Source: Saccoglossus kowalevskii
Lineage: Eukaryota > Hemichordata > Enteropneusta > Harrimaniidae
Direction of reading: 5' to 3'
Assembly (NCBI RefSeq): GCF_000003605.2
Contig: NW_003135246.1
Coordinates: 1-46,031 of the forward strand
Length of the DNA: 46,031 bases
The position numbers and the translations under genes were made by a program. Within the stretch, counting starts at the first letter, position 1. Each line of letters begins with the position of its first letter. Of the stretch, positions 1 to 28,255 are shown piece by piece. Below the pieces are notes generated by a model. That model was given only the letters and a program-made list of their open reading frames with translations, was not told the origin of the DNA and ran no database searches.

Positions 1-222
1 CCAATAAACTGTATTCACTCCATTAAAGCACATCTCGAATATAAGTGCATACACTGTATTCACTCCATTAAAGCACATCTCGAATATAAGTGCATATACT
101 GCATTCTTGAATAGAAGTGCACACACTGTATTCACTCTATTAAAAGCACATCCTAATATAAGTGCATACACTGTATTCACTCTATTAAAGCACATCTCGA
201 ATAGAAGTGCACACACTGTATT

Positions 223-850
223 CACTATTAAAAGCACATCCCAATATAAGTGCATACACTGTATTCACTCTATTAAAGCACATCTCCAATATAAGTGCAT
301 ACACAGCATTCACTCTATTAAAGCACATCTTGAATAGAAGTGCATACACTGTATTCACTCCATTAAAGCACATCTCGAATAGAAGTGCACACACTGTATT
401 CACTCTATTAAAAACACATCCCAATATAAGTGCATACACTGCATTCACTCTATTAAAGCACATCTCGAACAGAAGTGCACACACTGTATTCACTCTATTA
501 AAAGCACATCCCAATATAAGTGCATACACTGTATTGATTATGAAAAGCACATCTCCAATAGAAGTGCATACACTGTATTCACTCTATTAAAGCACATCTC
601 GAATAGAAGTGCACACACTGTATTCACTGTATTAAAAGCACATCTCCAATAGAAATGCATACACTGTATTCACTCTATTAAAGCACATCTCCAATAGAAG
701 TGCACACACTGTATTCACTCTATTAAAAGCACATCCTAATATAAGTGCATACACTGTATTCACTCTATTAAAGCACATCTTGAATAGAAGTCCATACACT
801 GTATTTACTCTATTAAAGCACATCTCGAATAGAAGTGCACACACTGTATT
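223..850. repeat. A-family 14-monomer higher-order repeat, unit 1 (628 bp)
   Basis: Fourteen distinguishable monomers in fixed order. Diagnostic members are a 43-bp one beginning CACTATTAAAAGC, one with CATCTTGAATAG, one with CTCGAACAG, a 44-bp one beginning GATTATGAAAAGC, a 46-bp one with CACTGTATTAAAAGC and AGAAATGCATAC, and one with AGTCCATACAC. Their lengths (one 43, one 44, one 46, eleven 45) add to exactly 628, the spacing from the 43-bp monomer at 223 to its counterpart at 851. The same order recurs at 24957, and parts of it at 6313, 6898, 10684 and 32662. Confidence 0.88.
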
Positions 851-1343
851 CACTATTAAAAGCACATCCCAATATAAGTGCATACACTGTATTCACTCTA
901 TTAAAGCACATCTCCAATATAAGTGCATACACTGCATTCACTCTATTAAAGCACATCATGAAAAGAAGTGCATACACTGTATTCACTCCATTAAAGCACA
1001 TCTCGAATAGAAGTGCACACACTGTATTCACTCTATTAAAAACACATCCCAATATAAGTACATACACTGCATTCACTCTATTAAAGCACATCTCGAACAG
1101 AAGTGCACACACTGTATTCACTCTATTAAAAGCACATCCCAATATAAGTGCATACACTGTATTGATTATGAAAAGCACATCTCCAATAGAAGTGCATACA
1201 CTGTATTCACTCTATTAAAGCACATCTCGAATAGAAGTGCACACACTGTATTCACTGTATTAAAAGCACATCTCCAATAGAAATGCATACACTGTATTCA
1301 CTCTATTAAAGCACATCTCGAATAGAAGTGCACACACTGTATT
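851..1343. repeat. A-family higher-order repeat, unit 2, partial (11 monomers, 493 bp)
   Basis: This repeats monomers 1-11 of the unit at 223-850 in the same order. It differs by scattered substitutions, for example CATCATGAAAAG near 955 where unit 1 has CATCTTGAATAG, and AAGTACATAC near 1058. After the eleventh monomer, at 1344, the expected three closing monomers (135 bp) are replaced by other A monomers, so the 14-monomer period is broken here. 493 equals 628 minus three 45-bp monomers. Confidence 0.85.
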
Positions 1344-1541
1344 CACTGTATTAAAAGCACATCCCAATATAAGTGCATACACTGCATTCACTCCATTAAA
1401 GCACATCTCGAATATAAGTGCATATACTGCATTCACTCTATAAAGCACATCCCCAATATAAGTGCATACACTGTATTCACTATGAAAAGCACATGTCCAA
1501 TAGAAGTGCATACACTGTATTCACTCCATTAAAGCACATCC

Positions 1542-2240
1542 CAATAGAAGTGCATACGCTGTATTCACTCTATTAAAGCACATCTCGAATAGAAGTGCAC
1601 ACACTGTATTCACACTATTAAAAGCACATCCCAATAGAAGTGCATACACTGCATTCACTCTATTAAAGCACACCTTGAATAGAAGTGCACACACTGTATT
1701 CACTATTAAAAGCACATCCCAATATAAGTGCATACACTGTATACACTCTATTAAAGCACATCTCCAATATAAGTGCATACACTGCATTCACTCTATTAAA
1801 GCACATCTTGAATAGAAGTGCATACACTGTATTCACTCCATTAAAGCACATCTCGAATAGAAGTACACACACTGTATTCACTCTATTAAAAACACATCCC
1901 AATATAAGTGCATACACTGTATTCACTCTATTAAAGCACATCTCGAATAGAAGTGCACACACTTAAAAGCACATCCCAATATAAGTGCATACACTGCATT
2001 CACTCTATTACAGCACATCTCGAACAGAAGTGCACACACTGTATTCACTCTATTAAAAGCACATCCCAATATAAGTGCATACACTATATTGATTATGAAA
2101 AGCACATCTCCAATAGAAGTGCACACACTGTATTCACTGTATTAAAAGCACATCTCCAATAGAAATGCATACACTGTATTCACTCTATTAAAGCACATCT
2201 CGAATTGAAGTGCACACTCTGTATTCACTGTATTAAAAGC
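1542..2240. repeat. Recurrent block D, copy 1
   Basis: About 700 bp of A monomers matching 8213-8910 at a constant spacing of 6670. The 300-bp core, 1663-1962, recurs at 8333, 15691, 22912, 28256 and 41657. A landmark is the shortened monomer junction CACACACTTAAAAGC near 1958, which lacks 13 bp relative to the normal form (the stretch around GTATTCACTCTAT). Another is CTCGAATTGAAG near 2200 followed by GCACACTCTG. This copy is cut at its 3' edge by the switch to family B; the 8.3-kb copy continues in family A. Confidence 0.85.
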
Positions 2241-2541
2241 ACATTTCCAATAGAAGTGCATACACTGTATTCACTATGAAAAGCACATCTCCAATAGAAG
2301 TGCATACACTGTATTCACTATGAAAAGCTCATCTCCAATAGTAGTGCATACACTGTATTCACTCTATTAGAAGCACATTTCCAATAGAAGTGCATACACT
2401 GTATTCACTATGAAAAGCACATCTCCAATAGAAGTGCATACATAGTATTCACTCTATTAGAAGCACATCCCCAATAGAAGTGCATACATAGTATTCACTC
2501 TATTAGAAGCACATCCCCAATAGAAGTGCATACACTGTATT

Positions 2542-3172
2542 CACTCTGTTAAAGCACATCTCCAATAGTAGTGTATACACTGTATTCACTCTATTAGAAG
2601 CACATTCCCAATAGAAGTGCATACACTGTATTCACTATGAAAAGCACATCCCAATAGAAGTGCATACAGTGTATTCACTCTATTAGAAGCACATTTCCAA
2701 TAGAAGTACCTACACTGTATTCACTATGAAAAGCATATTTCCAATAGAAATGCATACACTGTATTCACTCTATTAGCAGCACATCTCAAATAGAAGTGCA
2801 TACACTGTATTCACTCTATTAGCAGCACATCTCGAATAGAAGTACATACACTGTATTCACTATGAAAAGCACATCTCGAATAGAAGTACATACACTGTAT
2901 TCACTATGAAAAGCACATCCCCAATAGAAGTGCATACACTGTATTCACTCTATTAGAAGTACATCCCCAATAGAAGTGCATACACTGTATTCACTTTATT
3001 AAAGCACATCTCCAATAGTAGTGCATACACTGTATTCACTCTATTAGAAGCACATTTCCAATAGAAGTGCATACACTGTATTCACTATGAAAAGCACATC
3101 TCCAATAGAAGTGCATACATAGTATTCACTCTATTAGAAGCACATCCCCAATAGAAGTGCATACACTGTATT
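2542..3172. repeat. B-family 14-monomer higher-order repeat (631 bp)
   Basis: The reference B unit, counted from the monomer CACTCTGTTAAAGC with AGTAGTGTATACAC. In order, the key variants are: GTGTATACAC; CATTCCCAATAG; CATCCCAATAG with CAGTGTATT; AGTACCTACAC; CATATTTCC with AGAAATGC; TAGCAGC with CTCAAATAG; TAGCAGC with CTCGAATAG and AGTACATAC; CTATGAAAAGC with CTCGAATAG; CTATGAAAAGC with CCCCAATAG; TAGAAGTACATCC; CACTTTATTAAAGC; TAGAAGCACATTTCC; a 44-mer ending CATAGTATT; TAGAAGCACATCCCC. The lengths sum to 631 with a 43-bp CCC form of the third monomer; the CCCC form gives 632. Confidence 0.9.
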
Positions 3173-3643
3173 CACTCTGTTAAAGCACATCTCCAATAGT
3201 AGTGTATACACTGTATTCACTCTATTAGAAGCACATTCCCAATAGAAGTGCATACACTGTATTCACTATGAAAAGCACATCCCCAATAGAAGTGCATACA
3301 GTGTATTCACTCTATTAGAAGCACATTTCCAATAGAAGTACCTACACTGTATTCACTATGAAAAGCACATTTCCAATAGAAATGCATACACTGTATTCAC
3401 TCTATTAGCAGCACATCTCAAATAGAAGTACATACACTGTATTCACTATGAAAAGCACATCTCGAATAGAAGTACATACACTGTATTCACTATGAAAAGC
3501 ACATCCCCAATAGAAGTGCATACACTGTATTCACTCTATTAGAAGTACATCCCCAATAGAAGTGCATACACTGTATTCACTTTATTAAAGCACATCTCCA
3601 ATAGTAGTGCATACACTGTATTCACTCTAGTAGAAGCACATTC
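3173..3643. repeat. B-family higher-order repeat, partial unit
   Basis: This starts with the same CACTCTGTTAAAGC monomer and follows the B order, with two differences from the preceding unit. The CATATTTCC monomer reads CACATTTCC, and the two TAGCAGC monomers are fused into one that starts as CTCAAATAG and ends AGTACATAC, a loss of 46 bp. It stops after the CACTTTATTAAAGC monomer. This fused-monomer form recurs at about 14111, 14851, 22070, 38606 and 40945, so it is an inherited variant and not a local event. Confidence 0.85.
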
Positions 3644-4543
3644 CCATTATAAGTGCATACACTGTATTCACTCTATTGAAAGCACATCTCCAATATAAGT
3701 GCATACACTGCATTCACTCTATTAAAGCACATCTCGAATATAAGTGCATACACTGTATTAACTATGGAAAGCACATCTCGAATATAAGTGCATACACTGT
3801 ATTCACTCTATTAAAGCACATCTCGAATAGAAGTGCACACACTATATTCACTCTATTAAAGCACATCTCGAATAGAAGTGCACACACTATATTCACTCTA
3901 TTAAAAGCACATTCCCCATTATAAGTGCATACACTGTATTGATTATGAAAAGCACATCTCCAATATAAGTGCATACACTGTATTCACTCTATTAAAACCC
4001 ATATCCAATATAAGTGCATACACTGTATTCACTCTATTAAAGCACATCTCGAATAGAAGTGCATACACTGTATTCACTCTATTAAAGCACATCCCAATAT
4101 AAGTGCACACACTGTATTCACTCCATTAAAGCACATCCCAATAAACTGTATTCACTCCATTAAAGCACATCTCGAATATAAGTGCATACACTGTATTCAC
4201 TCCATTAAAGCACATCTCGAATATAAGTGCATATACTGCATTCTTGAATAGAAGTGCACACACTGTATTCACTCTATTAAAAGCACATCCTAATATAAGT
4301 GCATACACTGTATTCACTCTATTAAAGCACATCTCGAATAGAAGTGCACACACTGTATTCACTATTAAAAGCACATCCAAATATAAGTGCATACACTGTA
4401 TTCACTCTATTAAAGCACATCTCCAATATAAGTGCATACACAGCATTCACTCTATTAAAGCACATCTTGAATAGAAGTGCATACACTGTATTCACTCCAT
4501 TAAAGCACATCTCGAATAGAAGTGCACACACTGTATTCACTCT
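3644..4543. repeat. Family A segment 2, copy of 24241-25140
   Basis: About 900 bp of A monomers. It matches 24241-25140 at a constant spacing of 20597, including the clipped GCATTCTTGAATAG junction and CCAATAAACTG. From 4138 it also matches the first ~400 bases of the window at spacing 4137; one difference is CATCCAAATATAAG near 4377 in place of CATCCCAATATAAG. Monomers with CACACACTATATTCAC (twice) and GATTATGAAAAGC are present. It is interrupted at about 4541, where CACTCTATTAGCAGC begins family B. Confidence 0.88.
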
Positions 4544-5345
4544 ATTAGCAGCACATCTCAAATAGAAGTGCATACACTGTATTCACTCTATTAGCAGCAC
4601 ATCTCGAATAGAAGTACATACACTGTATTCACTATGAAAAGCACATCTCGAATAGAAGTACATACACTGTATTCACTATGAAAAGCACATCCCCAATAGA
4701 AGTGCATACACTGTATTCACTCTATTAGAAGTACATCCCCAATAGAAGTGCATACACTGTATTCACTTTATTAAAGCACATCTCCAATAGTAGTGCATAC
4801 ACTGTATTCACTCTATTAGAAGCACATTTCCAATAGAAGTACCTACACTGTATTCACTATGAAAAGCACATTTCCAATAGAAATGCATACACTGTATTCA
4901 CTCTATTAGCAGCACATCTCAAATAGAAGTGCATACACTGTATTCACTCTATTAGCAGCACATCTCGAATAGAAGTACATACACTGTATTCACTATGAAA
5001 AGCACATCTCGAGTAGAAGTACATACACTGTATTCACTATGAAAAGCACATCCCCAATAGAAGTGCATACACTGTATTCACTCTATTAGAAGTACATCCC
5101 CAATAGAAGTGCATACACTGTATTCACTTTATTAAAGCACATCTCCAATAGTAGTGCATACACTGTATTCACTCTATTAGAAGCACATTCCCAATAGAAG
5201 TGCATACACTGTATTCACTATGAAAAGCACATCCCCAATACAGTGTATTCACTCTATTAGAAGCACATTTCCAATAGAAGTACCTACACTGTATTCACTA
5301 TGAAAAGCACATTTCCAATAGAAATGCATACACTGTATTCACTCT
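4544..5345. repeat. Family B island 2
   Basis: B monomers enter at the TAGCAGC position of the B order, so this island lacks the first half of a B unit. It then runs twice through the second half of the order and ends with the shortened monomer CCCCAATACAGTG at 5233, which lacks 10 bp (GAAGTGCATA) relative to its full-length relative. The same terminal series closes the islands near 15128, 22349, 31436 and 38887. CTCGAGTAG near 5009 is a private variant. Confidence 0.88.
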
Positions 5346-7789
5346 ATTAGCAGCACATCTCGAATAGAAGTGCATACACTGTATTCACTCGATGAAAGCA
5401 CATCTCAAATAGAAGTACATACACTGTATTCACTCTATTAAAAACACATCCCAATATAAGTGCATACACTGCATTCACTCCATTAAAGCACATCTCGAAT
5501 ATAAGTGCATATACTGCATTCACTCTATTAAAGCACATCCCCAATATAAGTGCATACACTGTATTCACTATGAAAAGCACATCTCCAATAGAAGTGCATA
5601 CACTGTATTCACTCCATTAAAGCACATCCCAATAAAAGTGCATACACTGTATTCACTCTATTAAAGCACATCTCGAATAGAAGTGCATACGCTGTATTCA
5701 CTCTATTAAAGCACATCTCGAATAGAAGTGCACACACTGTATTCACACTATTAAAAGCACATCCCAATAGAAGTGCATACACTGCATTCACTCTATTAAA
5801 GCACATCTCGAATAGAAGTGCACACACTGTATTCACTGTATTAAAAGCACATCTCCAATAGAAATGCATACACTGTATTCACTCTATTAAATCACATCTC
5901 GAATAGAAGTGCACACACTGTATTCACTGTATTAAAAGCACATCCCAATATAAGTGCATACACTGTATTCACTCTATTGAAGCACATCTCGAATAGAAGT
6001 GCACTGTATTCACTATGAAAAGCACATCTCCAATATAAGTACACACACTGTATTCACTCTATTAAAACACATCTCGAATAGAAGTGCATACACTGTATTC
6101 ACTCTATTAAAGCACATCTGGAATAGAAGTGCATACACTGTATTCACTCTATTAAAGCACATCCCAATATAAGTGCACACACTGTATTCACTCCATTAAA
6201 GCACATCCCAATATACTGTATTCACTCCATTAAAGCACATCTCGAATATAAGTGCATACACTGTATTCACTCCATTAAAGCACATCTCGAATATAAGTGC
6301 ATACACTGTATTCACTCTATTAAAGCACATCTCCAATATAAGTGCATACACAGCATTCACTCTATTAAAGCACATCTTCAATAGAAGTGCATACACTGTA
6401 TTCACTCCATTAAAGCACATCTCGAATAGAAGTGCACACACTGTATTCACTCTATTAAAAACACATCCCAATATAAGTGCATACACTGCATTCACTCTAT
6501 TAAAGCACATCTCGAACAGAAGTGCACACACTGTATTCACTCTATTAAAAGCACATCCCAATATAAGTGCATACACTGTATTGATTATGAAAAGCACATC
6601 TCCAATAGAAGTGCATACACTGTATTCACTCTATTAAAGCACATCTCGAATAGAAGTGCACACACTGTATTCACTGTATTAAAAGCACATCTCCAATAGA
6701 AATGCATACACTGTATTCACTCTATTAAAGCACATCTCGAATAGAAGTGCACACACTGTATTCACTCTATTAAAAGCACATCCTAATATAAGTGCATACA
6801 CTGTATTCACTCTATTAAAGCACATCTTGAATAGAAGTCCATACACTGTATTTACTCTATTAAAGCACATCTCGAATAGAAGTGCACACACTGTATTCAC
6901 TATTAAAAGCACATCCCAATATAAGTGCATACACTGTATTCACTCTATTAAAGCACATCTCCAATATAAGTGCATACACTGCATTCACTCTATTAAAGCA
7001 CATCATGATAGAAGTGCATACACTGTATTCACTCCATTAAAGCACATCTCGAATAGAAGTGCACACACTGTATTCACTCTATTAAAAACACATCCCATAT
7101 ATAAGTGCATACACTGCATTCACTCTATTAAAGCACATCTCGAACAGAAGTGCACACACTGTATTCACTCTATTAAAAGCACATCCCAATATAAGTGCAT
7201 ACACTGTATTGATTATGAAAAGCACATCTCCAATAGAAGTGCATACACTGTATTCACTCTATTAAAGCACATCTCGAATAGAAGTGCACACACTGTATTC
7301 ACTGTATTAAAAGCACATCTCCAATAGAAATGCATACACTGTATTCACTCTATTAAAGCACATCTCCAATATAAGTGCATACACTGTATTCACTCTGTTA
7401 AAGCACATCTCGAATAGAAGTGCACACACTATATTCACTCTATTAAAAGCACATTTCCCAATATAAGTGCATACACTGTATTAATTATGAAAAGCACATC
7501 TCCAATATAAGTGCATACACTGTATTCACTCTATTAAAACACATATCCAATATAAGTGCATACACTGTATTCACTCTATTAAAGCACATCTCGAATAGAA
7601 GTGCATACACTGTATTCATTCTATTAAAGCACATCCCAATATAAGTGCACACACTGTATTCACTCCATTAAAGCACATCCCAATATACTGTATTCACTCT
7701 ATTAAAGCACATCTCGAATATAAGTGCATACACTGTATTCACTCTATTAAAGCACATATTCAATATAAGTGCATACACTGTATTCACTC
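5346..7789. repeat. Family A segment 3
   Basis: This opens with the recurrent B-to-A exit, CACTCGATGAAAGC at 5387-5400. About 430 bp then match 15242-15670 at spacing 9895. A four-base-shortened monomer, GAAGTGCACTGTATTC, lies near 5997. The deletion monomer CCCAATATACTG appears near 6210 and 7680. A-type higher-order sequence occupies 6313-7389. A private insertion gives CATCCCATATATAAG near 7091. The rest (7390-7789) is ordinary A monomers, ending at the entry landmark ATTCAATATA (7758). No gene is supported. Confidence 0.88.
6313..7389. repeat. A-family higher-order repeats, hybrid unit plus second unit
   Basis: From 6313 the monomer order matches 266 onward at spacing 6047 and keeps that spacing to about 7000. 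The first unit here begins with the second monomer of the A order, because the 43-bp CACTATTAAAAGC monomer is absent and replaced upstream by CACTCCATTAAAGC monomers. The 43-bp monomer is present at 6898 and starts the next unit. In this second unit CATCATGATAGAAG (near 7003) is shorter than the CATCATGAATAG seen at 25690, and the nearby CATCCCATATATAAG carries extra bases. Confidence 0.8.
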
Positions 7790-8130
7790 TATTAGAAGCA
7801 CATCTCCAATAGAAGTGCATACACTGTATTCACTCTATTAAAGCACATCTCCAATATAAGTGCATACACTGTATTCACGCTATTAGAAGCACATCTCGAA
7901 TAGAAGTGCATACACTGTATTCACTATGAAAAGCACATCTCCAATAGAAGTGCATACACTGTATTCACTATGAAAAGCTCATCTCCAATAGTAGTGCATA
8001 CACTGTATTCACTCTATTAGAAGCACATTTCCAATAGAAGTGCATACACTGTATTCACTATGAAAAGCACATCTCCAATAGAAGTGCATACATAGTATTC
8101 ACTCTATTAGAAGCACATCCCCAATAGAAG
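7790..8130. repeat. Short family B island 3
   Basis: About 340 bp of B monomers follow the entry landmark ATTCAATATA (7758). They include TATTAGAAGCACATC with AATAGAAG, a monomer with CACGCTATTAGAAGC (private, near 7877), CTATGAAAAGC, CTATGAAAAGCTCATC, TAGAAGCACATTTCC and the 44-mer ending CATAGTATT. It returns to family A near 8130 through CACACTATTAAAAGC. It looks like the start of a B island, with the main 14-monomer units deleted. Confidence 0.82.
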
Positions 8131-8212
8131 TGCATACACTGTATTCACACTATTAAAAGCACATCCCAATAGAAGTGCATACACTGCATTCACTCTATTA
8201 AAGCACATCTCG

Positions 8213-8910
8213 AATAGAAGTGCATACGCTGTATTCACTCTATCAAAGCACATCTCGAATAGAAGTGCACACACTGTATTCACACTATTAAAAGCACATC
8301 CCAATAGAAGTGCATACACTGCATTCACTCTATTAAAGCACACCTTGAATAGAAGTGCACACACTGTATTCACTATTAAAAGCACATCCCAATATAAGTG
8401 CATACACTGTATTCACTCTATTAAAGCACATCTCCAATATAAGTGCATACACTGCATTCACTCTATTAAAGCACATCTTGAATAGAAGTGCATACACTGT
8501 ATTCACTCCATTAAAGCACATCTCGAATAGAAGTACACACACTGTATTCACTCTATTAAAAACACATCCCAATATAAGTGCATACACTGTATTCACTCTA
8601 TTAAAGCACATCTCGAATAGAAGTGCACACACTTAAAAGCACATCCCAATATAAGTGCATACACTGCATTCACTCTATTAAAGCACATCTCGAACAGAAG
8701 TGCACACACTGTATTCACTCTATTAAAAGCACATCCCAATATAAGTGCATACACTATATTGATTATGAAAAGCACATCTCCAATAGAAGTGCAAACACTG
8801 TATTCACTGTATTAAAAGCACATCTCCAATAGAAATGCATACACTGTATTCACTCTATTAAAGCACATCTCGAATTGAAGTGCACACTCTGTATTCACTG
8901 TATTAAAAGC
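8213..8910. repeat. Recurrent block D, copy 2
   Basis: Matches 1542-2240 at spacing 6670 and 15571-16043 at spacing 7358. It contains the 13-bp-shortened CACACACTTAAAAGC monomer near 8628. TATCAAAGC near 8243, in place of TATTAAAGC, is a private difference. Unlike copy 1 it continues into A-type sequence at its 3' end (8911-9900), and that continuation matches 16436-17425 at spacing 7525. Confidence 0.85.
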
Positions 8911-9935
8911 ACATCCCAATATAAGTGCATACACTGCATTCACTCTATTAAAGCTCATCTCGAACAGAAGTGCACACACTGTATTCACTCTGTTAAAAGC
9001 ACATTCCCCAATATATATGCAAACACTGTATTGATTATGAAAAGCACATCTCCAATAGAAGTGCATACACTGTATTCACTCTATTAAAGCACATCTTGAA
9101 TAGAAGTGCACACACTGTATTCACTGTATTAAAAGCACATCCCAATATAAGTGCATACACTGTATTCACTCTATTGAAGCACATCTCGAATAGAAGTGCA
9201 GTGTTAACTATGAAAAGCACATCTCCAATATAAGTACATACACTGTATTCACTCTATTAAAGCACATCCCAATATAAGTGCACACACTGTATTCACTCCA
9301 TTAAAGCACATCCCAATATACTGTATTCACTCTATTAAAACACATCTCCAATATAAGTGCATACACTGTATTCACTCTATTAAAGCACATCTCGAATAGA
9401 AGTGCATACACTCTATTAAAGCACATCCCAATATAAGTGCACACACTGTATTCACTCCATTAAAGCACATCCCAATATACTGTATTCACTCCATTAAAGC
9501 ACATCTCGAATATAAGTGCATACACTGTATTCACTCCATTAAAGCACATCTCGAATATAAGTGCATACACTGTATTCACTCTATTAAAGCACATCCCCAA
9601 TATAAGTGCATACACTGTATTCACTCTATTAAAGCACATCTCCAATAGAAGTGCATACACAGTATTCACTCCATTAAAGAACATCCCAATAGAAGTGCAT
9701 ACACTGTATTCACTCTATTAAAACACCTCTCGAATAGAAGTGCATACACTGTATTCACTCTATTAAAGCAAATACCAATATAAGTCCATACACTGTATTC
9801 ACTCTATTGACGCACATCCCAATAGAAGTGCATAGACTGTATCCGCTCTATTAAAGCACATCTCGAATAAAAGTGCATACACTGTTTTCACTCTATTAAA
9901 AGCACATCCCAATATAAATAAGTGCATACATTGTA

Positions 9936-11140
9936 TTCACTCTTTGAAAGCACATCCCAATATAAGTGCATACATTGTATTCACTTTATTGAAAGCACAT
10001 CCCAATATAAGTGCATACACTGTATTAACTCTATTAAAGCACATCCCATTATAAGTGCATACACTGTATTCACTCTATTGAAAGCACATCTCCAATATAA
10101 GTGCATACACTGCATTCACTCTATTAAAGCACATCTCGAATATAAGTGCATACACTGTATTAACTATGAAAAGCACATCTCGAATATAAGTGCATACACT
10201 GTATTCACTCTATTAAAGCACATCTCGAATAGAAGTGCACACACTATATTCACTCTATTAAAGCACATCTCGAATAGAAGTGCACACACTATATTCACTC
10301 TATTAAAAGCACATTCCCCAATATAAGTGCATACACTGTATTGATTATGAAAAGCACATCTCCAATATAAGTGCATACACTGTATTCACTCTATTAAAAC
10401 ACATATCCAATATAAGTGCATACACTGTATTCACTCTATTAAAGCACATCTCGAATAGAAGTGCATACACTGTATTCACTCCATTAAAGCACATCTCGAA
10501 TATAAGTGCATACACTGTATTCACTCCATTAAAGCACATCTCGAATATAAGTGCATATACTGCATTCTTGAATAGAAGTGCACACACTGTATTCACTCTA
10601 TTAAAAGCACATCCTAATATAAGTGCATACACTGTATTCACTCTATTAAAGCACATCTCGAATAGAAGTGCACACACTGTATTCACTATTAAAAGCACAT
10701 CCCAATATAAGTGCATACACTGTATTCACTCTATTAAAGCACATCTCCAATATAAGTGCATACACAGCATTCACTCTATTAAAGCACATCTTGAATAGAA
10801 GTGCATACACTGTATTCACTCCATTAAAGCACATCTCGAATAGAAGTGCACACACTGTATTCACTCTATTAAAAACACATCCCAATATAAGTGCATACAC
10901 TGCATTCACTCTATTAAAGCACATCTCGAACAGAAGTGCACACACTGTATTCACTCTATTAAAAGCACATCCCAATATAAGTGCATACACTGTATTGATT
11001 ATGAAAAGCACATCTCCAATAGAAGTGCATACACTGTATTCACTCTATTAAAGCACATCTCGAATAGAAGTGCACACACTGTATTCACTGTATTAAAAGC
11101 ACATCTCCAATAGAAATGCATACACTGTATTCACTCTATT
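9936..11140. repeat. Block shared with 24131-25413
   Basis: 9936 to about 10470 match the 24.1-kb region at spacing 14195. About 10480 to 11140 match at spacing 14273. The 78-bp shift reflects a deletion in this copy: the 24.7-kb copy has extra sequence containing CCCAATATAAG, GTGCACACAC and the AATAAACTG monomer. Landmarks are CTCTTTGAAAGC near 9943, CATCCCATTATAAG near 10042, two CACACACTATATTCAC monomers and GATTATGAAAAGC. The first half also matches 19785-20110. Confidence 0.85.
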
Positions 11141-12550
11141 AAAGCACATCTCGAATAGAAGTGCACACACTGTATTCACTGTATTAAAAGCACATCCCAA
11201 TATAAGTGCATACACTACATTCACTCTATTAAAGCTCATCTCGAACAGAAGTGCACACACTGTATTCACTCTATTAAAATCACATCCCGATATAAGTGCA
11301 TACACTGTATTGATTATGAAAAGCACATCTCCAATAGAAGTGCATACACTGTATTCACTCTATTAAAGCACATCTCGAATAGAAGTGCACACACTGTATT
11401 CACTGTATTAAAAGCACATCTCCAATGGAAATGCATACACTGTATTCACTCTATTAAATCACATCTCGAATAGAAGTGCACACACTGTATTCACTGTATT
11501 AAAAGCACATCCCAATATAAGTGCATACACTGTATTCACTCTATTGAAGCACATCTCGAATAGAAGTGCACTGTATTCACTATGAAAAGCACATCTCCAA
11601 TATAAGTACATACACTGTATTCACTCTATTAAAACACATCTCGAATAGAAGTGCATACACTGTATTCACTCTATTAAAGCACATCTCGAATAGAAGTGCA
11701 TACACTGTATTCACTCTATTAAAGCACATCCCAATATAAGTGCACACACTGTATTCACTCCATTAAAGCACATCCCAATATACTGTATTCACTCCATTAA
11801 AGCACATCTCGAATATAAGTGCATACACTGTATTCACTCCATTAAAGCACATCTCGAATATAAGTGCATACACTGTATTCACTCTATTAAAACACATCCC
11901 CAATATAAGTGCATACACTGTATTCACTATGAAAAGGACATCTCGAATAGAAGTGCATACACTGTATTCACTCTATTAAAGCACCTCTCGAATAGAAGTG
12001 CATACACTGTGTTCACTCTATTAAAGCAAATACCAATACAAGACCATACACTGTATTCACTCTATTGAAGCACATACGAATAGAAGTGCATAGACTGTAT
12101 CCGCTCTATTAAAGCACATCTCGAATAGAAGTGCATACACTGTTTTCACTCTATTAAAAGCACATCCCAATATAAGTGCATACATTGTATTCACTCCATT
12201 GAAAGCACATCCCAATATAAGTGCATACATTGTATTCACTTTATTGAAAGCACATCCCAATATAAGTGCATACACTGTATTAACTCTATTAAAGCACATC
12301 CCATTATAAGTGCATACACTGTATTCACTCTATTGAAAGCACATCTCCAATATAAGTGCATACACTGCATTCACTCTATTAAAGCACATCTCGAATATAA
12401 GTGCATACACTGTATTAACTATGAAAAGCACATCTCGAATATAAGTGCATACACTGTATTCACTCTATTAAAGCACATCTCCAATATAAGTGAATACACT
12501 GTATTCACTCTGTTAAAGCACATCTCGAATAGAAGTGCACACACTATATT
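10684..12550. repeat. Long duplication, copy 1 (about 1.87 kb, partner 25585-27451)
   Basis: Five landmarks hold an exactly constant spacing of 14901 to the partner region: the 43-bp CACTATTAAAAGC monomer at 10684, the region 11093-11326, the C core at 12057-12299, and positions 12333 and 12419. This is the longest co-linear pair I could follow by eye. Differences are substitutions, for example CACTACATTCAC near 11213 here versus CACTGCATTCAC in the partner, and AAAAGGACATC near 11934 here versus AAAAGCACATC. The match ends near 12550, where this copy has CACACTATATTCAC and the partner CACACTGTTTTCAC. Confidence 0.85.
12025..12312. repeat. C module core, copy 1
   Basis: A run of distinctive A-type monomers: ACCAATACAAGACC, CACATACGAATAG, GTATCCGCTC, CTGTTTTCAC, two with CATTGTATTCAC and TTGAAAGC, and CTGTATTAACTC followed by CATCCCATTATAAG. 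The same run lies at 20814-21101 (spacing 8789), 26926-27213 (14901) and 42842 to about 43108 (30817), and in shorter or altered form near 33865 and 29735. Related cores with ACCAATATAAGTCC instead lie near 9765, 17293 and 19620. Most of the rare extra CpG sites of the array sit in this module. Confidence 0.82.
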
Positions 12551-13260
12551 CACTCTATTAAAAGCACATTCCCCAATATAAGTGCATACACTGTATTGAT
12601 TATGAAAAGCACATCTCCAATATAAGTGCATACACTGTATTCACTCTATTAAAACACATATCCAATATAAGTGCATACACTGTATTCACTCTATTAAAGC
12701 ACATCTCGAATAGAAGTGCATACACTGTATTCACTCTATTAAAGCACATCCCAATATAAGTGCACACACTGTATTCACTCCATTAAAGCACATCCCAATA
12801 TACTGTATTCACTCTATTAAAACACATCTCGAATATAAGTGCATACACTGTATTCACTCTATTAAAGCACATATTCAATATAAGTGCATACACTGTATTC
12901 ACTCTATTAGAAGCACATCTCCAATATAAGTGCATACACTGTATTCACTCTATTAAAGCACATCTCCAATAGTAGTGCACACACTGCATTCACTCTATTA
13001 GAAGCACATTTCCAATAGAAGTGTATACACTGTATTCACTATGAAAAGCACATCTCCAATAAAAGTGCATACACTGTATTCACTATGAAAAGCTCATCTC
13101 CAATAGTAGTGCATACACTGTATTCACTCTATTAGAAGCACATTTCCAATAGAAGTGCATACACTGTATTCACTATGAAAAGCACATCTCCAATAGAAGT
13201 GCATACATAGTATTCACTCTATTAGAAGCACATCCCCAATAGAAGTGCATACACTGTATT

Positions 13261-13892
13261 CACTCTGTTAAAGCACATCTCCAATAGTAGTGTATACACT
13301 GTATTCACTCTATTAGAAGCACATTCCCCAATAGAAGTGCATACACTGTATTCACTATGAAAAGCACATCCCAATAGAAGTGCATACAGTGTATTCACTC
13401 TATTAGAAGCACATTTCCAATAGAAGTACCTACACTGTATTCACTATGAAAAGCACATTTCCAATAGAAATGCATACACTGTATTCACTCTATTAGCAGC
13501 ACATCTCAAATAGAAGTGCATACACTGTATTCACTCTATTAGCAGCACATCTCGAATAGAAGTACATACACTGTATTCACTATGAAAAGCACATCTCGAA
13601 TAGAAGTACATACACTGTATTCACTATGAAAAGCACATCCCCAATAGAAGTGCATACACTGTATTCACTCTATTAGAAGTACATCCCCAATAGAAGTGCA
13701 TACACTGTATTCACTTTATTAAAGCACATCTCCAATAGTAGTGCATACACTGTATTCACTCTATTAGAAGCACATTTCCAATAGAAGTGCATACACTGTA
13801 TTCACTATGAAAAGCACATCTCCAATAGAAGTGCATACATAGTATTCACTCTATTAGAAGCACATCCCCAATAGAAGTGCATACACTGTATT
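13261..13892. repeat. B-family 14-monomer unit (632 bp)
   Basis: Same monomer order as 2542-3172, starting at CACTCTGTTAAAGC. The length is 632 and not 631 because the second monomer has one extra C (CATTCCCCAATAG). The 43-bp CCC form of the CAGTGTATT monomer and separate CTCAAATAG and CTCGAATAG TAGCAGC monomers are both present, as in the 2.5-kb unit. Confidence 0.88.
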
Positions 13893-14614
13893 CACTCTGT
13901 TAAAGCACATCTCCAATAGTAGTGTATACACTGTATTCACTCTATTAGAAGCACATTCCCAATAGAAGTGCATACACTGTATTCACTATGAAAAGCACAT
14001 CCCCAATAGAAGTGCATACAGTGTATTCACTCTATTAGAAGCACATTTCCAATAGAAGTACCTACACTGTATTCACTATGAAAAGCACATTTCCAATAGA
14101 AATGCATACACTGTATTCACTCTATTAGCAGCACATCTCAAATAGAAGTACATACACTGTATTCACTATGAAAAGCATATTTCCAATAGAAATGCATACA
14201 CTGTATTCACTCTATTAGCAGCACATCTCAAATAGAAGTGCATACACTGTATTCACTCTATTAGCAGCACATCTCGAATAGAAGTACATACACTGTATTC
14301 ACTATGAAAAGCACATCTCGAATAGAAGTACATACACTGTATTCACTATGAAAAGCACATCCCCAATAGAAGTGCATACACTGTATTCACTCTATTAGAA
14401 GTACATCCCCAATAGAAGTGCATACACTGTATTCACTTTATTAAAGCACATCTCCAATAGTAGTGCATACACTGTATTCACTCTATTAGAAGCACATTTC
14501 CAATAGAAGTGCATACACTGTATTCACTATGAAAAGCACATCTCCAATAGAAGTGCATACATAGTATTCACTCTATTAGAAGCACATCCCCAATAGAAGT
14601 GCATACACTGTATT
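13893..14614. repeat. B-family expanded unit, 16 monomers (722 bp)
   Basis: The B order with an internal repeat of two monomers. After CACATTTCC/AGAAATGC and the fused TAGCAGC monomer (CTCAAATAG, AGTACATAC, near 14123-14163), the order steps back to CATATTTCC/AGAAATGC and runs through separate CTCAAATAG and CTCGAATAG TAGCAGC monomers. The extra 44 + 46 = 90 bp accounts exactly for 722 versus 632. It reads as a crossover between the two inherited forms of the B unit (fused and unfused). Confidence 0.87.
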
Positions 14615-15690
14615 CACTCTGTTAAAGCACATCTCCAATAGTAGTGTATACACTGTATTCACTCTATTAGAAGCACATTCCCAATAGAAGTGCATACACT
14701 GTATTCACTATGAAAAGCACATCCCCAATAGAAGTGCATACAGTGTATTCACTCTATTAGAAGCACATTTCCAATAGAAGTACCTACACTGTATTCACTA
14801 TGAAAAGCACATTTCCAATAGAAATGCATACACTGTATTCACTCTATTAGCAGCACATCTCAAATAGAAGTACATACACTGTATTCACTATGAAAAGCAC
14901 ATCTCGAATAGAAGTACATACACTGTATTCACTATGAAAAGCACATCCCCAATAGAAGTGCATACACTGTATTCACTCTATTAGAAGTACACCCCCAATA
15001 GAAGTACATACACTGTATTCACTTTATTAAAGCACATCTCCAATAGTAGTGCATACACTGTATTCACTCTATTAGAAGCACATTCCCAATAGAAGTGCAT
15101 ACACTGTATTCACTATGAAAAGCACATCCCCAATACAGTGTATTCACTCTATTAGAAGCACATTTCCAATAGAAGTACCTACACTGTATTCACTATGAAA
15201 AGCACATTTCCAATAGAAATGCATACACTGTATTCACTCTATTAGCAGCACATCTCGAATAGAAGTGCATACACTGTATTCACTCGATGAAAGCACATCT
15301 CAAATAGAAGTACATACACTGTATTCACTCTATTAAAAACACATCCCAATATAAGTGCATACACTGCATTCACTCCATTAAAGCACATCTCGAATATAAG
15401 TGCATATACTGCATTCACTCTATTAAAGCACATCCCCAATATAAGTGCATACACTGTATTCACTATGAAAAGCACATCTCCAATAGAAGTGCATACACTG
15501 TATTCACTCCATTAAAGCACATCCCAATAAAAGTGCATACACTGTATTCACTCTATTAAAGCACATCTCGAATAGAAGTGCATACGCTGTATTCACTCTA
15601 TTAAAGCACATCTCGAATAGAAGTGCACACACTGTATTCACACTATTAAAAGCACATCCCAATAGAAGTGCATACACTGCATTCACTCTA

Positions 15691-15990
15691 TTAAAGCACA
15701 CCTTGAATAGAAGTGCACACACTGTATTCACTATTAAAAGCACATCCCAATATAAGTGCATACACTGTATTCACTCTATTAAAGCACATCTCCAATATAA
15801 GTGCATACACTGCATTCACTCTATTAAAGCACATCTTGAATAGAAGTGCATACACTGTATTCACTCCATTAAAGTACATCTCGAATAGAAGTACACACAC
15901 TGTATTCACTCTATTAAAAACACATCCCAATATAAGTGCATACACTGTATTCACTCTATTAAAGCACATCTCGAATAGAAGTGCACACAC
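15691..15990. repeat. Block D core, copy 3
   Basis: A 300-bp core with the same monomer order as 1663-1962 (spacing 14028), 8333-8632 (7358) and 22912-23211 (7221). It carries a private AAAGTACATC near 15872 in place of AAAGCACATC. It is followed directly by a 167-bp tandem duplication that shifts all later spacings by 167 bp. Confidence 0.85.
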
Positions 15991-16210
15991 TTAAAAGCAC
16001 ATCCCAATATAAGTGCATACACTGCATTCACTCTATTAAAGCACATCTCGAATAGAAGTACACACACTGTATTCACTCTATTAAAAACACATCCCAATAT
16101 AAGTGCATACACTGTATTCACTCTATTAAAGCACATCTCGAATAGAAGTGCACACACTTAAAAGCACATCCCAATATAAGTGCATACACTGCATTCACTC
16201 TATTAAAGCA
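15877..16210. repeat. Local tandem duplication, 2 x 167 bp
   Basis: 15877-16043 and 16044-16210 read the same, each starting CATCTCGAATAGAAGTAC and each containing the shortened CACACACTTAAAAGC monomer (near 15989 and 16153). This is the only place where that marker occurs twice within 200 bp. The spacing to the 28.3-kb copy changes from 12565 before the duplication to 12398 after it, a difference of exactly 167. It is a recent event, because I saw no difference between the two units. Confidence 0.9.
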
Positions 16211-16519
16211 CATCTCGAACAGAAGTGCACACACTGTATTCACTCTATTAAAAGCACATCCCAATATAAGTGCATACACTATATTGATTATGAAAAGCAC
16301 ATCTCCAATAGAAGTGCACACACTGTATTCACTGTATTAAAAGCACATCTCCAATAGAAATGCATACACTGTATTCACTCTATTAAAGCACATCTCGAAT
16401 TGAAGTGCACACTCTGTATTCACTGTATTAAAAGCACATCCCAATATAAGTGCATACACTGCATTCACTCTATTAAAGCTCATCTCGAACAGAAGTGCAC
16501 ACACTGTATTCACTCTATT

Positions 16520-17470
16520 AAAAGCACATTCCCCAATATATATGCAAACACTGTATTGATTATGAAAAGCACATCTCGAATAGAAGTGCATACACTGTAT
16601 TCACTCTATTAAAGCACATCTCGAATAGAAGTGCACACACTGTATTCACTGTATTAAAAGCACATCCCAATATAAGTGCATACACTGTATTCACTCTATT
16701 GAAGCACATCTCGAATAGAAGTGCAGTGTTAACTATGAAAAGCACATCTCCAATATAAGTACATACACTGTATTCACTCTATTAAAGCACATCCCAATAT
16801 AAGTGCACACACTGTATTCACTCCATTAAAGCACATCCCAATATACTGTATTCACTCTATTAAAACACATCTCCAATATAAGTGCATACACTGTATTCAC
16901 TCTATTAAAGCACATCTCGAATAGAAGTGCATACACTCTATTAAAGCACATCCCAATATAAGTGCACACACTGTATTCACTCCATTAAAGCACATCCCAA
17001 TATACTGTATTCACTCCATTAAAGCACATCTCGAATATAAGTGCATACACTGTATTCACTCCATTAAAGCACGTCTCGAATATAAGTGCATACACTGTAT
17101 TCACTCTATTAAAGCACATCCCCAATATAAGTGCATACACTGTATTCACTCTATTAAAGCACATCTCCAATAGAAGTGCATACACAGTATTCACTCCATT
17201 AAAGAACATCCCAATAGAAGTGCATACACTGTATTCACTCTATTAAAACACCTCTCGAATAGAAGTGCATACACTGTATTCACTCTATTAAAGCAAATAC
17301 CAATATAAGTCCATACACTGTATTCACTCTATTGACGCACATCCCAATAGAAGTGCATAGACTGTATCCGCTCTATTAAAGCACATCTCGAATAAAAGTG
17401 CATACACTGTTTTCACTCTATTAAAAGCACATCCCAATATAAGTGCATACATTGTATTCACTCTTTGAAA
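16520..17470. repeat. Tandem 2.3-kb repeat block, copy 1 (partner about 18803-19798)
   Basis: 16560-16745 matches 18843-19028 at spacing 2283. 16985-17209 matches 19313-19537 at spacing 2328. The 45-bp change is one extra monomer in the downstream copy near 19150-19190. Landmarks are ATATATATGCAAACAC, GAAGTGCAGTGTTAAC, the 9-bp-shortened GCATACACTCTATT near 16931, CATTAAAGAACATC near 17200 and CTCTTTGAAAGC near 17461. The same series also lies at 9000-9950 and, in part, at 28920-29400. Confidence 0.83.
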
Positions 17471-17649
17471 GCACATCCCAATATAAGTGCATACATTGTA
17501 TTCACTTTATTGAAAGCACATCCCAATATAAGTGCATACACTGTATTAACTCTATTAAAGCACATCCCATTATAAGTGCATGACACTGTATTCACTCTAT
17601 TGAAAGCACATCCCCAATAGAAGTGCATAGACTGTATCCGCTCTATTAA

Positions 17650-18440
17650 AGCACATCTCGAATAGAAGTGCATACACTGTTTTCACTCTATTAAAAGCAC
17701 ATCCCAATATAAGTGCATACATTGTATTTACTCTATTGAAAGCACAATCTCCAATATAAGTGCATACACTGCATACACTCTATTAAAGCACATCTTGAAT
17801 AGAAGTGCATACACTGTATTCACTCTATCAAAGCACATCTCGAATAGAAGTGCACACACTGTATTCACTCTATTAAAAGCACACCCCCAATATAAGTGCA
17901 TACACTGTATTAACTATTAAAATCACATCTCGAATATAAGTGCATACACTGTATTCACTCTATTAAAGCACATGTCAAATATAAGTGCATACACTGTATT
18001 AACTATGAAAAGCACATCTCGAATATAAATGCATACACTGTATTCACTCTATTAAAAACACATCCCAATATAAGTGCATACACTGTATTCACTCTATTAA
18101 AGCACATCTCGAATAGAAGTGCACACACTTAAAAGCACATCCCAATATAAGTGCATACACTGCATTCACTCTATGAAAGCACATCTCGAACAGAAGTGCA
18201 CACACTGTATTCACTCTATTAAAGCACATCTCGAATAGAAGTGCACACACTGTATTCACTGTATTAAAAGCACATCTCCAATAGAAATGCATACACTGTA
18301 TTCACTCTACTAAAGCACATCTCGAATTGAAGTGCACACACTGTATTCACTGTATTAAAAGCACATCCCAATATAAGTGCATACACTGCATTCACTCTAT
18401 TAAAGCTCATCTCGAACAGAAGTGTACACACTGTATTCAC
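17650..18440. repeat. Block shared with 27416-28206
   Basis: Constant spacing of 9766 across TATCAAAGC (17826), CACACCCCCAATATAAG (near 17880), the AACTATTAAAATCAC monomer (near 17910), the CACACACTTAAAAGC marker (near 18124) and 18089-18292. A private extra A gives AGCACAATCTCC near 17741 here, where the partner reads AGCACATCTCC. CATGTCAAATATAAG near 17971 differs from CATCTCAAATATAAG in the partner. Confidence 0.83.
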
Positions 18441-20813
18441 TCTATTAAAAGCACATTCCCCAATATATATGCATACACTGTATTGATTATGAAAAGCACA
18501 TCTCCAATAGAAGTGCATACACTGTATTCACTCTATTAAAGCACATCTCGAATAGAAGTGCACACACTGTATTCACTGTATTGAAAGCACATCCCAATAT
18601 AAGTGCATACACTGTATTCACTCTATTGAATCACATCTCGAATAGAAGTGCACTGTGTTCACTATGAAAAGCACATCTCCAATATAAGTACATACACTGT
18701 ATTCACTCTATTAAAACACATCTCCAATATAAGTGCATACACTGTATTCACTCTATTAAAGCTCATCTCGAACAGAAGTGCACACACTGTATTCACTCTA
18801 TTAAAAGCACATTCCCCAATATATATGCAAACACTGTATTGATTATGAAAAGCACATCTCCAATAGAAGTGCATACACTGTATTCACTCTATTAAAGCAC
18901 ATCTCGAATAGAAGTGCACACACTGTATTCACTGTATTAAAAGCACATCCCAATATAAGTGCATACACTGTATTCACTCTATTGAAGCACATCTCGAATA
19001 GAAGTGCAGTGTTAACTATGAAAAGCACATCTCCAATATAAGTACATACACTGTATTCACTCTATTAAAGCACATCCCAATATAAGTGCACACACTGTAT
19101 TCACTCCATTAAAGCACATCCCAATATACTGTATTCACTCTAATAAAACACATCTCCAATAGAAGTGCACACACTGTATTCACTGTATTAAAAGCACATC
19201 CCAATATAAGTGCATACACTGTATTCACTCTATTAAAGCACATCTCGAATAGAAGTGCATACACTCTATTAAAGCACATCCCAATATAAGTGCACACACT
19301 GTATTCACTCCATTAAAGCACATCCCAATATACTGTATTCACTCCATTAAAGCACATCTCGAATATAAGTGCATACACTGTATTCACTCCATTAAAGCAC
19401 ATCTCGAATATAAGTGCATACACTGTATTCACTCTATTAAAGCACATCCCCAATATAAGTGCATACACTGTATTCACTCTATTAAAGCACATCTCCAATA
19501 GAAGTGCATACACAGTATTCACTCCATTAAAGAACATCCCAATAGAAGTGCATACACTGTATTCACTCTATTAAAACATCTCTCGAATAGAAGTGCATAC
19601 ACTGTATTCACTCTATTAAAGCAAATACCAATATAAGTCCATACACTGTATTCACTCTATTGACGCACATCCCAATAGAAGTGCATAGACTGTATCCGCT
19701 CTATTAAAGCACATCTCGAATAAAAGTGCATACACTGTTTTCACTCTATTAAAAGCACATCCCAATATAAGTGCATACATTGTATTCACTCTTTGAAAGC
19801 ACATCCCAATATAAGTGCATACATTGTATTCACTTTATTGAAAGCACATCCCAATATAAGTGCATACACTGTATTAACTCTATTAAAGCACATCCCATTA
19901 TAAGTGCATACACTGTATTCACTCTATTGAAAGCACATCTCCAATATAAGTGCATACACTGCATTCACTCTATTAAAGCACATCTCGAATATAAGTGCAT
20001 ACACTGTATTAACTATGAAAAGCACATCTCGAATATAAGTGCATACACTGTATTCACTCTATTAAAGCACATCTCGAATAGAAGTGCACACACTATATTC
20101 ACTCTATTAAAGCACATCTCGAATAGAAGTGCACACACTGTATTCACTGTATTAAAAGCACATCTCCAATAGAAATGCATACACTGTATTCACTCTATTA
20201 AATCACATCTCGAATAGAAGTGCACACACTGTATTCACTGTATTAAAAGCACATCCCAATATAAGTGCATACACTGTATTCACTCTATTGAAGCACATCT
20301 CGAATAGAAGTGCACTGTATTCACTATGAAAAGCACATCTCCAATATAAGTACACACACTGTATTCACTCTATTAAAACACATCTCGAATAGAAGTGCAT
20401 ACACTGTATTCACTCTATTAAAGCACATCTCGAATAGAAGTGCATACACTGTATTCACTCTATTAAAGCACATCCCAATATAAGTGCACACACTGTATTC
20501 ACTCCATTAAAGCACATCCCAATATACTGTATTCACTCCATTAAAGCACATCTCGAATATAAGTGCATACACTGTATTCACTCCATTAAAGCACATCTCG
20601 AATATAAGTGCATACACTGTATTCACTCTATTAAAGCACATCCCCAATATAAGTGCATACACTGTATTCACTATGAAAAGCACATCTCGAATAGAAGTAC
20701 ATACACTGTATTCACTCTATTAAAAACACATCCCAATATAAGTGCATACACTGCATTCACTCTATTAAAGCACCTCTCGAATAGAAGTGCATACACTGTA
20801 TTCACTCTATTAA

Positions 20814-21101
20814 AGCAAATACCAATACAAGACCATACACTGTATTCACTCTATTGAAGCACATACGAATAGAAGTGCATAGACTGTATCCGCTCTATTA
20901 AAGCACATCTCGAATAGAAGTGCATACACTGTTTTCACTCTATTAAAAGCACATCCCAATATAAGTGCATACATTGTATTCACTCTATTGAAAGCACATC
21001 CCAATATAAGTGCATACATTGTATTCACTTTATTGAAAGCACATCCCAATATAAGTGCATACACTGTATTAACTCTATTAAAGCACATCCCATTATAAGT
21101 G
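20814..21101. repeat. C module core, copy 2
   Basis: Same monomer run as 12025-12312, at spacing 8789. Upstream, the shortened GTGCACTGTATTC monomer (about 20312) is at spacing 8744 from its counterpart at about 11568. The 45-bp difference is one extra monomer here (with TATTAAAAACACATCCC near 20720). Within 120 bp downstream, family A stops and family B begins at 21257. Confidence 0.8.
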
Positions 21102-21256
21102 CATACACTGTATTCACTCTATTGAAAGCACATCTCCAATATAAGTGCATACACTGCATTCACTCTATTAAAGCACATCTCGAATATAAGTGCATACACT
21201 GTATTAACTATGAAAAGCACATCTCGAATATAAGTGCATACACTGTATTCACTCTA

Positions 21257-22461
21257 TTAGAAGCACATTTCCAATAGAAGTGCATACACTGTATTCACTA
21301 TGAAAAGCACATCTCCAATAGAAGTGCATACATAGTATTCACTCTATTAGAAGCACATCCCCAATAGAAGTGCATACACTGTATTCACTCTGTTAAAGCA
21401 CATCTCCAATAGTAGTGTATACACTGTATTCACTCTATTAGAAGCACATTCCCAATAGAAGTGCATACACTGTATTCACTATGAAAAGCACATCCCAATA
21501 GAAGTGCATACAGTGTATTCACTCTATTAGAAGCACATTTCCAATAGAAGTACCTACACTGTATTCACTATGAAAAGCATATTTCCAATAGAAATGCATA
21601 CACTGTATTCACTCTATTAGCAGCACATCTCAAATAGAAGTGCATACACTGTATTCACTCTATTAGCAGCACATCTCGAATAGAAGTACATACACTGTAT
21701 TCACTATGAAAAGCACATCTCGAATAGAAGTACATACACTGTATTCACTATGAAAAGCACATCCCCAATAGAAGTGCATACACTGTATTCACTCTATTAG
21801 AAGTACATCCCCAATAGAAGTGCATACACTGTATTCACTTTATTAAAGCACATCTCCAATAGTAGTGTATACACTGTATTCACTCTATTAGAAGCACATT
21901 CCCAATAGAAGTGCATACACTGTATTCACTATGAAAAGCACATCCCCAATAGAAGTGCATACAGTGTATTCACTCTATTAGAAGCACATTTCCAATAGAA
22001 GTACCTACACTGTATTCACTATGAAAAGCACATTTCCAATAGAAATGCATACACTGTATTCACTCTATTAGCAGCACATCTCAAATAGAAGTACATACAC
22101 TGTATTCACTATGAAAAGCACATCTCGAATAGAAGTACATACACTGTATTCACTATGAAAAGCACATCCCCAATAGAAGTGCATACACTGTATTCACTCT
22201 ATTAGAAGTACATCCCCAATAGAAGTGCATACACTGTATTCACTTTATTAAAGCACATCTCCAATAGTAGTGCATACACTGTATTCACTCTATTAGAAGC
22301 ACATTCCCAATAGAAGTGCATACACTGTATTCACTATGAAAAGCACATCCCCAATACAGTGTATTCACTCTATTAGAAGCACATTTCCAATAGAAGTACC
22401 TACACTGTATTCACTATGAAAAGCACATTTCCAATAGAAATGCATACACTGTATTCACTCT
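21257..22461. repeat. Family B island 5, with an inter-unit hybrid monomer
   Basis: B monomers begin without the usual ATTCAATATA lead-in. From 21386 the normal B order runs to the CACTTTATTAAAGC monomer at about 21837. That monomer continues not with GTGCATAC but with GTGTATACAC, the tail of the CACTCTGTTAAAGC monomer. The order then resumes at the second monomer of a new unit. The hybrid therefore skips three monomers (46, 44 and 46 bp plus part-lengths). The island closes with the standard CCCCAATACAGTG (22349) and CGATGAAAGC (22506) series. Confidence 0.88.
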
Positions 22462-22911
22462 ATTAGCAGCACATCTCGAATAGAAGTGCATACACTGTAT
22501 TCACTCGATGAAAGCACATCTCAAATAGAAGTACATACACTGTATTCACTCTATTAAAAACACATCCCAATATAAGTGCATACACTGCATTCACTCCATT
22601 AAAGCACATCTCGAATATAAGTGCATATACTGCATTCACTCTATTAAAGCACATCCCCAATATAAGTGCATACACTGTATTCACTATGAAAAGCACATCT
22701 CCAATATAAGTGCATACACTGTATTCACTCCATTAAAGCACATCCCAATAAAAGTGCATACACTGTATTCACTCTATTAACGCACATCTCGAATAGAAGT
22801 GCATACGCTGTATTCACTCTATTAAAGCACATCTCGAATAGAAGTGCACACACTGTATTCACACTATTAAAAGCACATCCCAATAGAAGTGCATACACTG
22901 CATTCACTCTA

Positions 22912-23211
22912 TTAAAGCACACCTTGAATAGAAGTGCACACACTGTATTCACTATTAAAAGCACATCCCAATATAAGTGCATACACTGTATTCACTCTAT
23001 TAAAGCACATCTCCAAAATAAGTGCATACACTGCATTCACTCTATTAAAGCACATCTTGAATAGAAGTGCATACACTGTATTCACTCCATTAAAGCACAT
23101 CTCGAATAGAAGTACACACACTGTATTCACTCTATTAAAAACACATCCCAATATAAGTGCATACACTGTATTCACTCTATTAAAGCACATCTCGAATAGA
23201 AGTGCACACAC
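22912..23211. repeat. Block D core, copy 4
   Basis: Same order as the other D cores (spacing 21249 from copy 1). It shares a derived substitution, CTCCAAAATAAG (near 23011), with copy 6 at 41657-41956 only; the other four copies read CTCCAATATAAG. This groups copies 4 and 6 as sisters although they are 18.7 kb apart. Downstream TTGACTATG near 23339 replaces TTGATTATG. Confidence 0.83.
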
Positions 23212-27451: not shown

Positions 27452-28255
27452 CACTCTATTAAAAGCACATCCCAATATAAGTGCATACATTGTATTTACT
27501 CTATTGAAAGCACATCTCCAATATAAGTGCATACACTGCATACACTCTATTAAAGCACATCTTGAATAGAAGTGCATACACTGTATTCACTCTATCAAAG
27601 CACATCTCGAATAGAAGTGCACACACTGTATTCACTCTATTAAAAGCACACCCCCAATATAAGTGCATACACTGTATTAACTATTAAAATCACATCTCGA
27701 ATATAAGTGCATACACTGTATTCACTCTATTAAAGCACATCTCAAATATAAGTGCATACACTGTATTAACTATGAAAAGCACATCTCGAATATAAATGCA
27801 TACACTGTATTCACTCTATTAAAACACATCCCAATATAAGTGCATACACTGTATTCACTCTATTAAAGCACATCTCGAATAGAAGTGCACACACTTAAAA
27901 GCACATCCCAATATAAGTACATACACTGCATTCACTCTATGAAAGCACATCTCGAACAGAAGTGCACACACTGTATTCACTCTATTAAAGCACATCTCGA
28001 ATAGAAGTGCACACACTGTATTCACTGTATTAAAAGCACATCTCCAATAGAAATGCATACACTGTATTCACTCTATTAAAGCACATCTCGAATTGAAGTG
28101 CACACACTGTATTCACTGTATTAAAAGCACATCCCAATATAAGTGCATACACTGCATTCACTCTATTAAAGCTCATCTCGAACAGAAGTGTACACACTGT
28201 ATTCACTCTATTAAAAGCACATCCCAATAGAAGTGCATACACTGCATTCACTCTA

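Follow-up and report, generated by a model that had tools for sequence, protein, structure and literature searches.

The window, i.e. the whole stretch of 46,031 bp of Saccoglossus kowalevskii DNA analysed here (NW_003135246.1), is satellite DNA throughout. The array and the contigs carrying the same repeat are listed below.

1..46031, forward strand: whole window, a single uninterrupted array of a ~45-bp satellite in one orientation, 1038 monomers of 246 distinct sequences
Satellite contigs: C2709 (the window), 46,031 bp; C2556, 11,754 bp; C3438, 11,255 bp; C3556, 18,851 bp, reverse strand

Monomers were cut by wrap-around alignment and are mostly 44-46 bp long (912/1038). TRF reports 110-46029 as one array with periods of 45 and 90, whereby the 90-bp unit scores 57,568 and the 45-bp unit 49,963. 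The 90-bp dimer is also the stronger period in the autocorrelation (0.511 vs 0.495 for the monomer). A 20-base probe matches the window contig 804 times in forward and 0 times in reverse orientation. With up to one mismatch it is found at 1,536 places in the genome (572 Mb, 4,830 contigs), all of which fall in the four contigs listed above. Each of them is satellite from end to end without visible flank, giving a total of ~88 kb. GC skew is between -0.26 and -0.39 in every 1-kb step, a steady strand asymmetry across 46 kb. A lone relative of the satellite, one 45-bp monomer of 86.7% identity on the reverse strand, is located at C1838:131041-131085. About 18 kb of this 356-kb contig were covered and hold no further match. 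This monomer could be a stray, or else a remnant of the seed that gave rise to the array. An exact 20-mer of the satellite is absent from viral contigs and from bacterial and archaeal genome contigs. A full-text literature search returned no title or abstract opening on this satellite, though such papers may still exist.

Periods of 45 and 90 bp are divisible by three and would suit a coding minisatellite with a repeat of 15 codons. Such a coding repeat is hardly credible and was rejected for want of a long frame: the longest of 116 ORFs of at least 60 aa has only 166 aa in 46 kb, and monomers of 44 and 46 bp break the frame. A long head-to-tail array without sign of coding is, as judged by sequence, satellite DNA.

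The original prediction described two units, A and B, of fourteen distinguishable monomers each and of near-equal length. Both are present, A with 628 bp and B with 631, 632 and 632 bp.

223..850, forward strand: A unit, 14 distinguishable monomers, 628 bp (209-836 in the monomer frame)
851..1478, forward strand: block after the A unit, which shares 608 of its 628 bases
2542..3172, forward strand: B unit, 14 monomers, 631 bp (2528-3158 in the monomer frame)
13261..13892, forward strand: B unit, 14 monomers, 632 bp, identical to the unit at 2542 at 630 positions
24853..26290 (end approximate), forward strand: second A stretch, whole 14-monomer windows repeated at lag 14
40074..40705, forward strand: B unit, 14 monomers, 632 bp, identical to the unit at 2542 at 628 positions

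The base alignment of the A unit (223-850) with the following block (851-1478) has 608 identities, 19 mismatches and 2 gaps. By monomer type this block agrees with the A unit in 9 of the first 10 labels and in 0 of the last 4. Base alignments of the three B units with the blocks following them yield 585/631, 584/632 and 590/632 identities. Within the B unit, 46-bp monomers partially alternate with monomers of 43-45 bp. Short monomers of 27-41 bp make up 83/1038 and mostly belong to recurring types (2, 28, 29, 43, 63, 67, 72, 76, 78, 86) in fixed contexts. Hence the out-of-register deletions look old and inherited.

A and B had been taken for two monomer families. Mean edit distances between monomers are 4.99 within A, 5.63 within B and 6.04 between A and B. 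With two clusters, the 84 common full-length types (types below 43 bp or seen fewer than three times were omitted) reach a silhouette of 0.35, and it is the TATGAAAAGC monomers that are isolated, not A from B. The division into two families was rejected, as the clusters are weak and fail to separate A from B. Equally, a common 14-mer ancestor was expected to reveal itself by a single best rotation of A against B. At the best of the 14 rotations the mean is 5.43 edits per monomer, a value reached by 37% of permutations and 44% of random pairs of 14-monomer windows. With this null result the common ancestor was rejected as well.

A dominant lag of 14 in both families had also been predicted. For short returns (≤40 monomers) in the window this holds, with 24/62 in A though only 25/182 in B. 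These short returns are a subset of all nearest returns, of which A has 147 and B 268; the A set omits types 0 and 3, since both recur elsewhere. In 300 shuffles lag 14 occurred on average 1.7 (A) and 3.9 (B) times, with maxima of 5 and 11. Whole 14-monomer windows repeat at lag 14 (≤2 edits per monomer) at 10 places, all in A and none in B, with starts at 119-297 and 24853-25031. The other contigs show the following picture. In C2556 the commonest return is 14 in A (8/23) and 20 in B (21/89, with 10 at 14). In C3438 it is 3 in A (3/13, 0 at 14) and 14 in B (6/8), while in C3556 returns of 13 and 14 are tied in A (12 each of 69) and 10 is the commonest in B (14/46, with 7 at 14). A preferred period of about 630 bp, the other explanation offered for the near-equal lengths, finds no support: the twelve commonest B returns span 3 to 29 monomers, and at base level the autocorrelation at 630 (0.317) is below the values at 45 (0.495) and 90 (0.511).

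The order of the monomers was analysed using 97 types, whereby rare monomers were given the nearest type with the help of their neighbours, a procedure that biases towards order. The uncertainty of the next type is 1.00 bit compared to 3.54 bits in 200 shuffles (lowest 3.49). Free of context, i.e. with the 246 raw sequences, it is 1.13 vs 2.89 bits (lowest 2.85). The types are arranged in modules with the cyclic order a, e, d, f, g, h, b, c, where the A unit lies in module a and the B unit in module b. In all four contigs together 88 of 131 module steps lead to the next module on the ring; shuffled strings reach at most 35 (60 shuffles), even with the best of all cyclic orders taken on each shuffled string. 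The eight module markers were picked by the analyst after the window had been read. The remaining 43 steps skip modules or go back on the ring. Within the window, the marker types 63-64 are present five times and delimit four turns.

5202..15096, forward strand: ring turn from one marker 63-64 to the next, 223 monomers, 9,895 bp
15097..22317, forward strand: ring turn from one marker 63-64 to the next, 164 monomers, 7,221 bp
22318..31404, forward strand: ring turn from one marker 63-64 to the next, 206 monomers, 9,087 bp
31405..38855, forward strand: ring turn from one marker 63-64 to the next, 167 monomers, 7,451 bp

The types are shared with the three other contigs. Exact copies of common window types account for 224/264 monomers in C2556, 192/256 in C3438 and 335/425 in C3556. 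Neighbour pairs also found in the window amount to 244/263, 240/255 and 388/424, respectively, with labels assigned with help of window context.

The module ring accounts for the array better than two ordinary 14-mer higher-order repeats (HORs) that expanded in tandem and were then interleaved. The latter could draw on the presence of units of the predicted lengths, on the enrichment of lag 14 in both sets and on the two A stretches that repeat whole at this lag. However, the A unit needs 19 edits to match its lag-14 neighbour but only 2 to match a copy at 24943. For the B unit at 2542, the lag-14 neighbour differs by 51 edits, the copy at 13247 (10.7 kb away) by 2 and the copy at 40060 by 4 (monomer frame). 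These more similar copies lie at least 10 kb off. Like regular (Willard-type) HORs, both units contain diverged monomers (the within-unit means given above). The near-identical tandem neighbours of such HORs are lacking: among 1,025 14-monomer windows there is not one whose best partner elsewhere, sole or tied, lies at lag 14. The best match is located at a median lag of 330 monomers and within 30 monomers in 25/1,025 windows. Moreover, instances of the B module ending in type 16 (cut by script) range from 6 to 16 monomers with exactly 14 in 3/19, and a rotation signal between A and B is absent. Of the predicted two 14-monomer HORs, the units and the enrichment of lag 14 stand; the HOR itself does not, as neighbours are less alike than distant copies. 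Within the window the reading as two HORs is largely refuted, and we consider it quite improbable. The 14-mer units rather resemble local fragments of a far longer cycle that was repeatedly cut and spliced.

The extent of this splicing was evaluated using a copying model with penalties fixed before the run, in which the own position within 100 bp was barred as source. The window is rebuilt from 94 patches with a mean of 490 bp (~11 monomers), leaving 143 mismatches in 46,031 bp (0.31%). Across jump penalties the number of patches varies from 73 to 111. A library of the window alone results in 102 patches and 195 mismatches, and one of the other contigs alone in 103 patches and 150 mismatches. 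A library holding the same monomers in random order requires 616 patches with 315 mismatches. The 93 switches comprise 6 small local indels, which were set aside, and 87 non-local switches. In 84/87 of these the monomer register is kept within 2 bp, which is partly expected because nearly the whole array is in one register. None of the inner patches returns to the previous source offset (0/92). The patches hence look like splices and not like gene-conversion tracts, which were rejected on this ground. Divergence does not increase with the distance between copies of a module (Spearman rho 0.007 for 2,233 copy pairs, which overlap and are non-independent).

A patchwork of this kind could also arise in the assembly, if repetitive reads were misjoined and the patches were absent from the chromosome. 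All four contigs matching the probe are satellite end to end (11,255-46,031 bp), and the longest exact repeats, with 839 bp in the window and a maximum of 987 bp overall, stay below 1 kb, about the size of older sequencing reads. Against this, the exact bases common to both sources at a switch have a median of 14 (upper quarter at least 38, largest 347), shorter than the overlap needed to join long reads. These few exact bases favour splicing in the DNA, guided by homology, over misjoined long reads. With three mismatches allowed per side the median shared stretch is 62 bp. In addition, the window retains 20 exact repeat pairs of at least 500 bp, and 20/20 sampled contigs are longer than 11 kb, in keeping with long reads though no proof of them. 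We regard an artefact as unlikely.

Toy simulations, unfitted including the mutation rate, were performed with 18 runs per model. Tandem duplication of short blocks places 13-68% of best matches within 30 monomers as compared to 2.4% observed, while long-range insertion places 1-9% there. The distance correlation fails to separate these models (rho -0.08 to 0.36 for tandem, -0.09 to 0.35 for long-range). Long-range copying would not be needed if entire ring turns recombined by unequal crossover, i.e. by tandem duplication of blocks of 100-200 monomers. In line with this the marker returns after 164-223 monomers, and best-match lags are similar or larger. When very long blocks (100-190 monomers) are duplicated in tandem in the simulation, near matches are also scarce (0.2-9%), the median lags are 86-275 and rho is sometimes ~0. 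However, whole-turn crossover predicts long intact tracts and adjacent turns that are most alike. The median best window has 9 edits in the array vs 0-2 with very long blocks. Identical windows of 8 monomers at a distance of 100-200 monomers make up 5% of copy pairs (13% at 200-400) vs 17-64% in the simulation. Very-long-block duplication is disfavoured mainly because long intact tracts would persist. We consider it a possible explanation, if a rather doubtful one.

Taken together, our data suggest, with a probability of roughly 70%, that a ~45-bp satellite with ~97 types in a cyclic order of modules has been shaped by in-register splicing of blocks between distant copies. Monomers would have diverged into recognisable types strung in a preferred module order with turns of 7-10 kb. 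The 14-mers would then correspond to the length of sections inside two modules, together with a small number of local repetitions. Many in-register block exchanges would join copies often many kb apart, be it by unequal crossovers or by template switches during break-induced replication. They would cut the cycle into patches of ~11 monomers, and distant copies would stay as alike as near ones. The ring order, the patchwork, its register and the flat distance curve within the window are observed, as is the presence of the window's monomer types in the three other contigs. What goes beyond in-register block splicing without distance preference in the window we infer from one finished sequence, in which unequal crossover and template switching leave identical junctions. 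The most likely mechanism is recombination-dependent replication with template switching, followed by independent unequal crossovers. Tentatively, replication might rewrite the array and switch its template in register about every half kb with no preference for near copies, although we would not count on this specific course. Template switching of this kind would keep the ring in order while no two turns agree.

The likeness of satellite copies is usually put down to exchange between neighbours. Inside the window it does not fall with distance. If the array is rewritten by template switching in the way just outlined, this satellite would be homogenised as a network and not from neighbour to neighbour. 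The fitted non-local junctions (87) are of the same order as the unmatched bases (143) in 46 kb. Along with the flat distance curve, this makes crossover versus template-switching replication a measurable matter. Moreover, a visible 14-mer period is not necessarily a higher-order repeat.

Minisatellites with variant repeats likewise have a short monomer and a map of variant monomers. In contrast to them, the present satellite occupies ~88 kb in four contigs and shows a ring-like order of ~97 types. It also differs from primate alpha satellite with its monomer of ~171 bp, as 912/1038 monomers have 44-46 bp. A CENP-B box was rejected for the array, since 1 match with 2 mismatches is rarer than the 6.2 expected by chance.

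Cascading alpha-satellite HORs or superHORs are exemplified by the 15mer of human chromosome 15 and the 58mer of the orangutan Y (PMC11050224, PMC12428378). There most units conform to a canonical copy (65% of 429 copies; 46/67 copies at 0.25% divergence). As in these examples, the unit here is long and some monomer types recur: type 0 labels 81 monomers, several per turn. A canonical unit was sought through the four turns and none was found (223, 164, 206 and 167 monomers). Unlike the cited examples, the turns thus differ in length, and the monomer has 45 bp.

For the 178-bp CEN180 of Arabidopsis, the review PMC12321929 describes precise in-frame indels of 1-31 monomers in mutation-accumulation lines. 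Insertions at the centromere stem from adjacent sequence, and conversion is short and nearby. Small indels plus conversion can build higher-order structure in simulations, and break-induced replication is argued to be the likely main mode of satellite expansion (PMC12321929). Compared with CEN180, the window differs in that distance has no effect on its copies across 46 kb, that conversion-like returns are absent and that its monomer has 45 instead of 178 bp. It resembles CEN180 in the kept register and in the size of the pieces, with patches of ~11 monomers here and indels of 1-31 monomers there.
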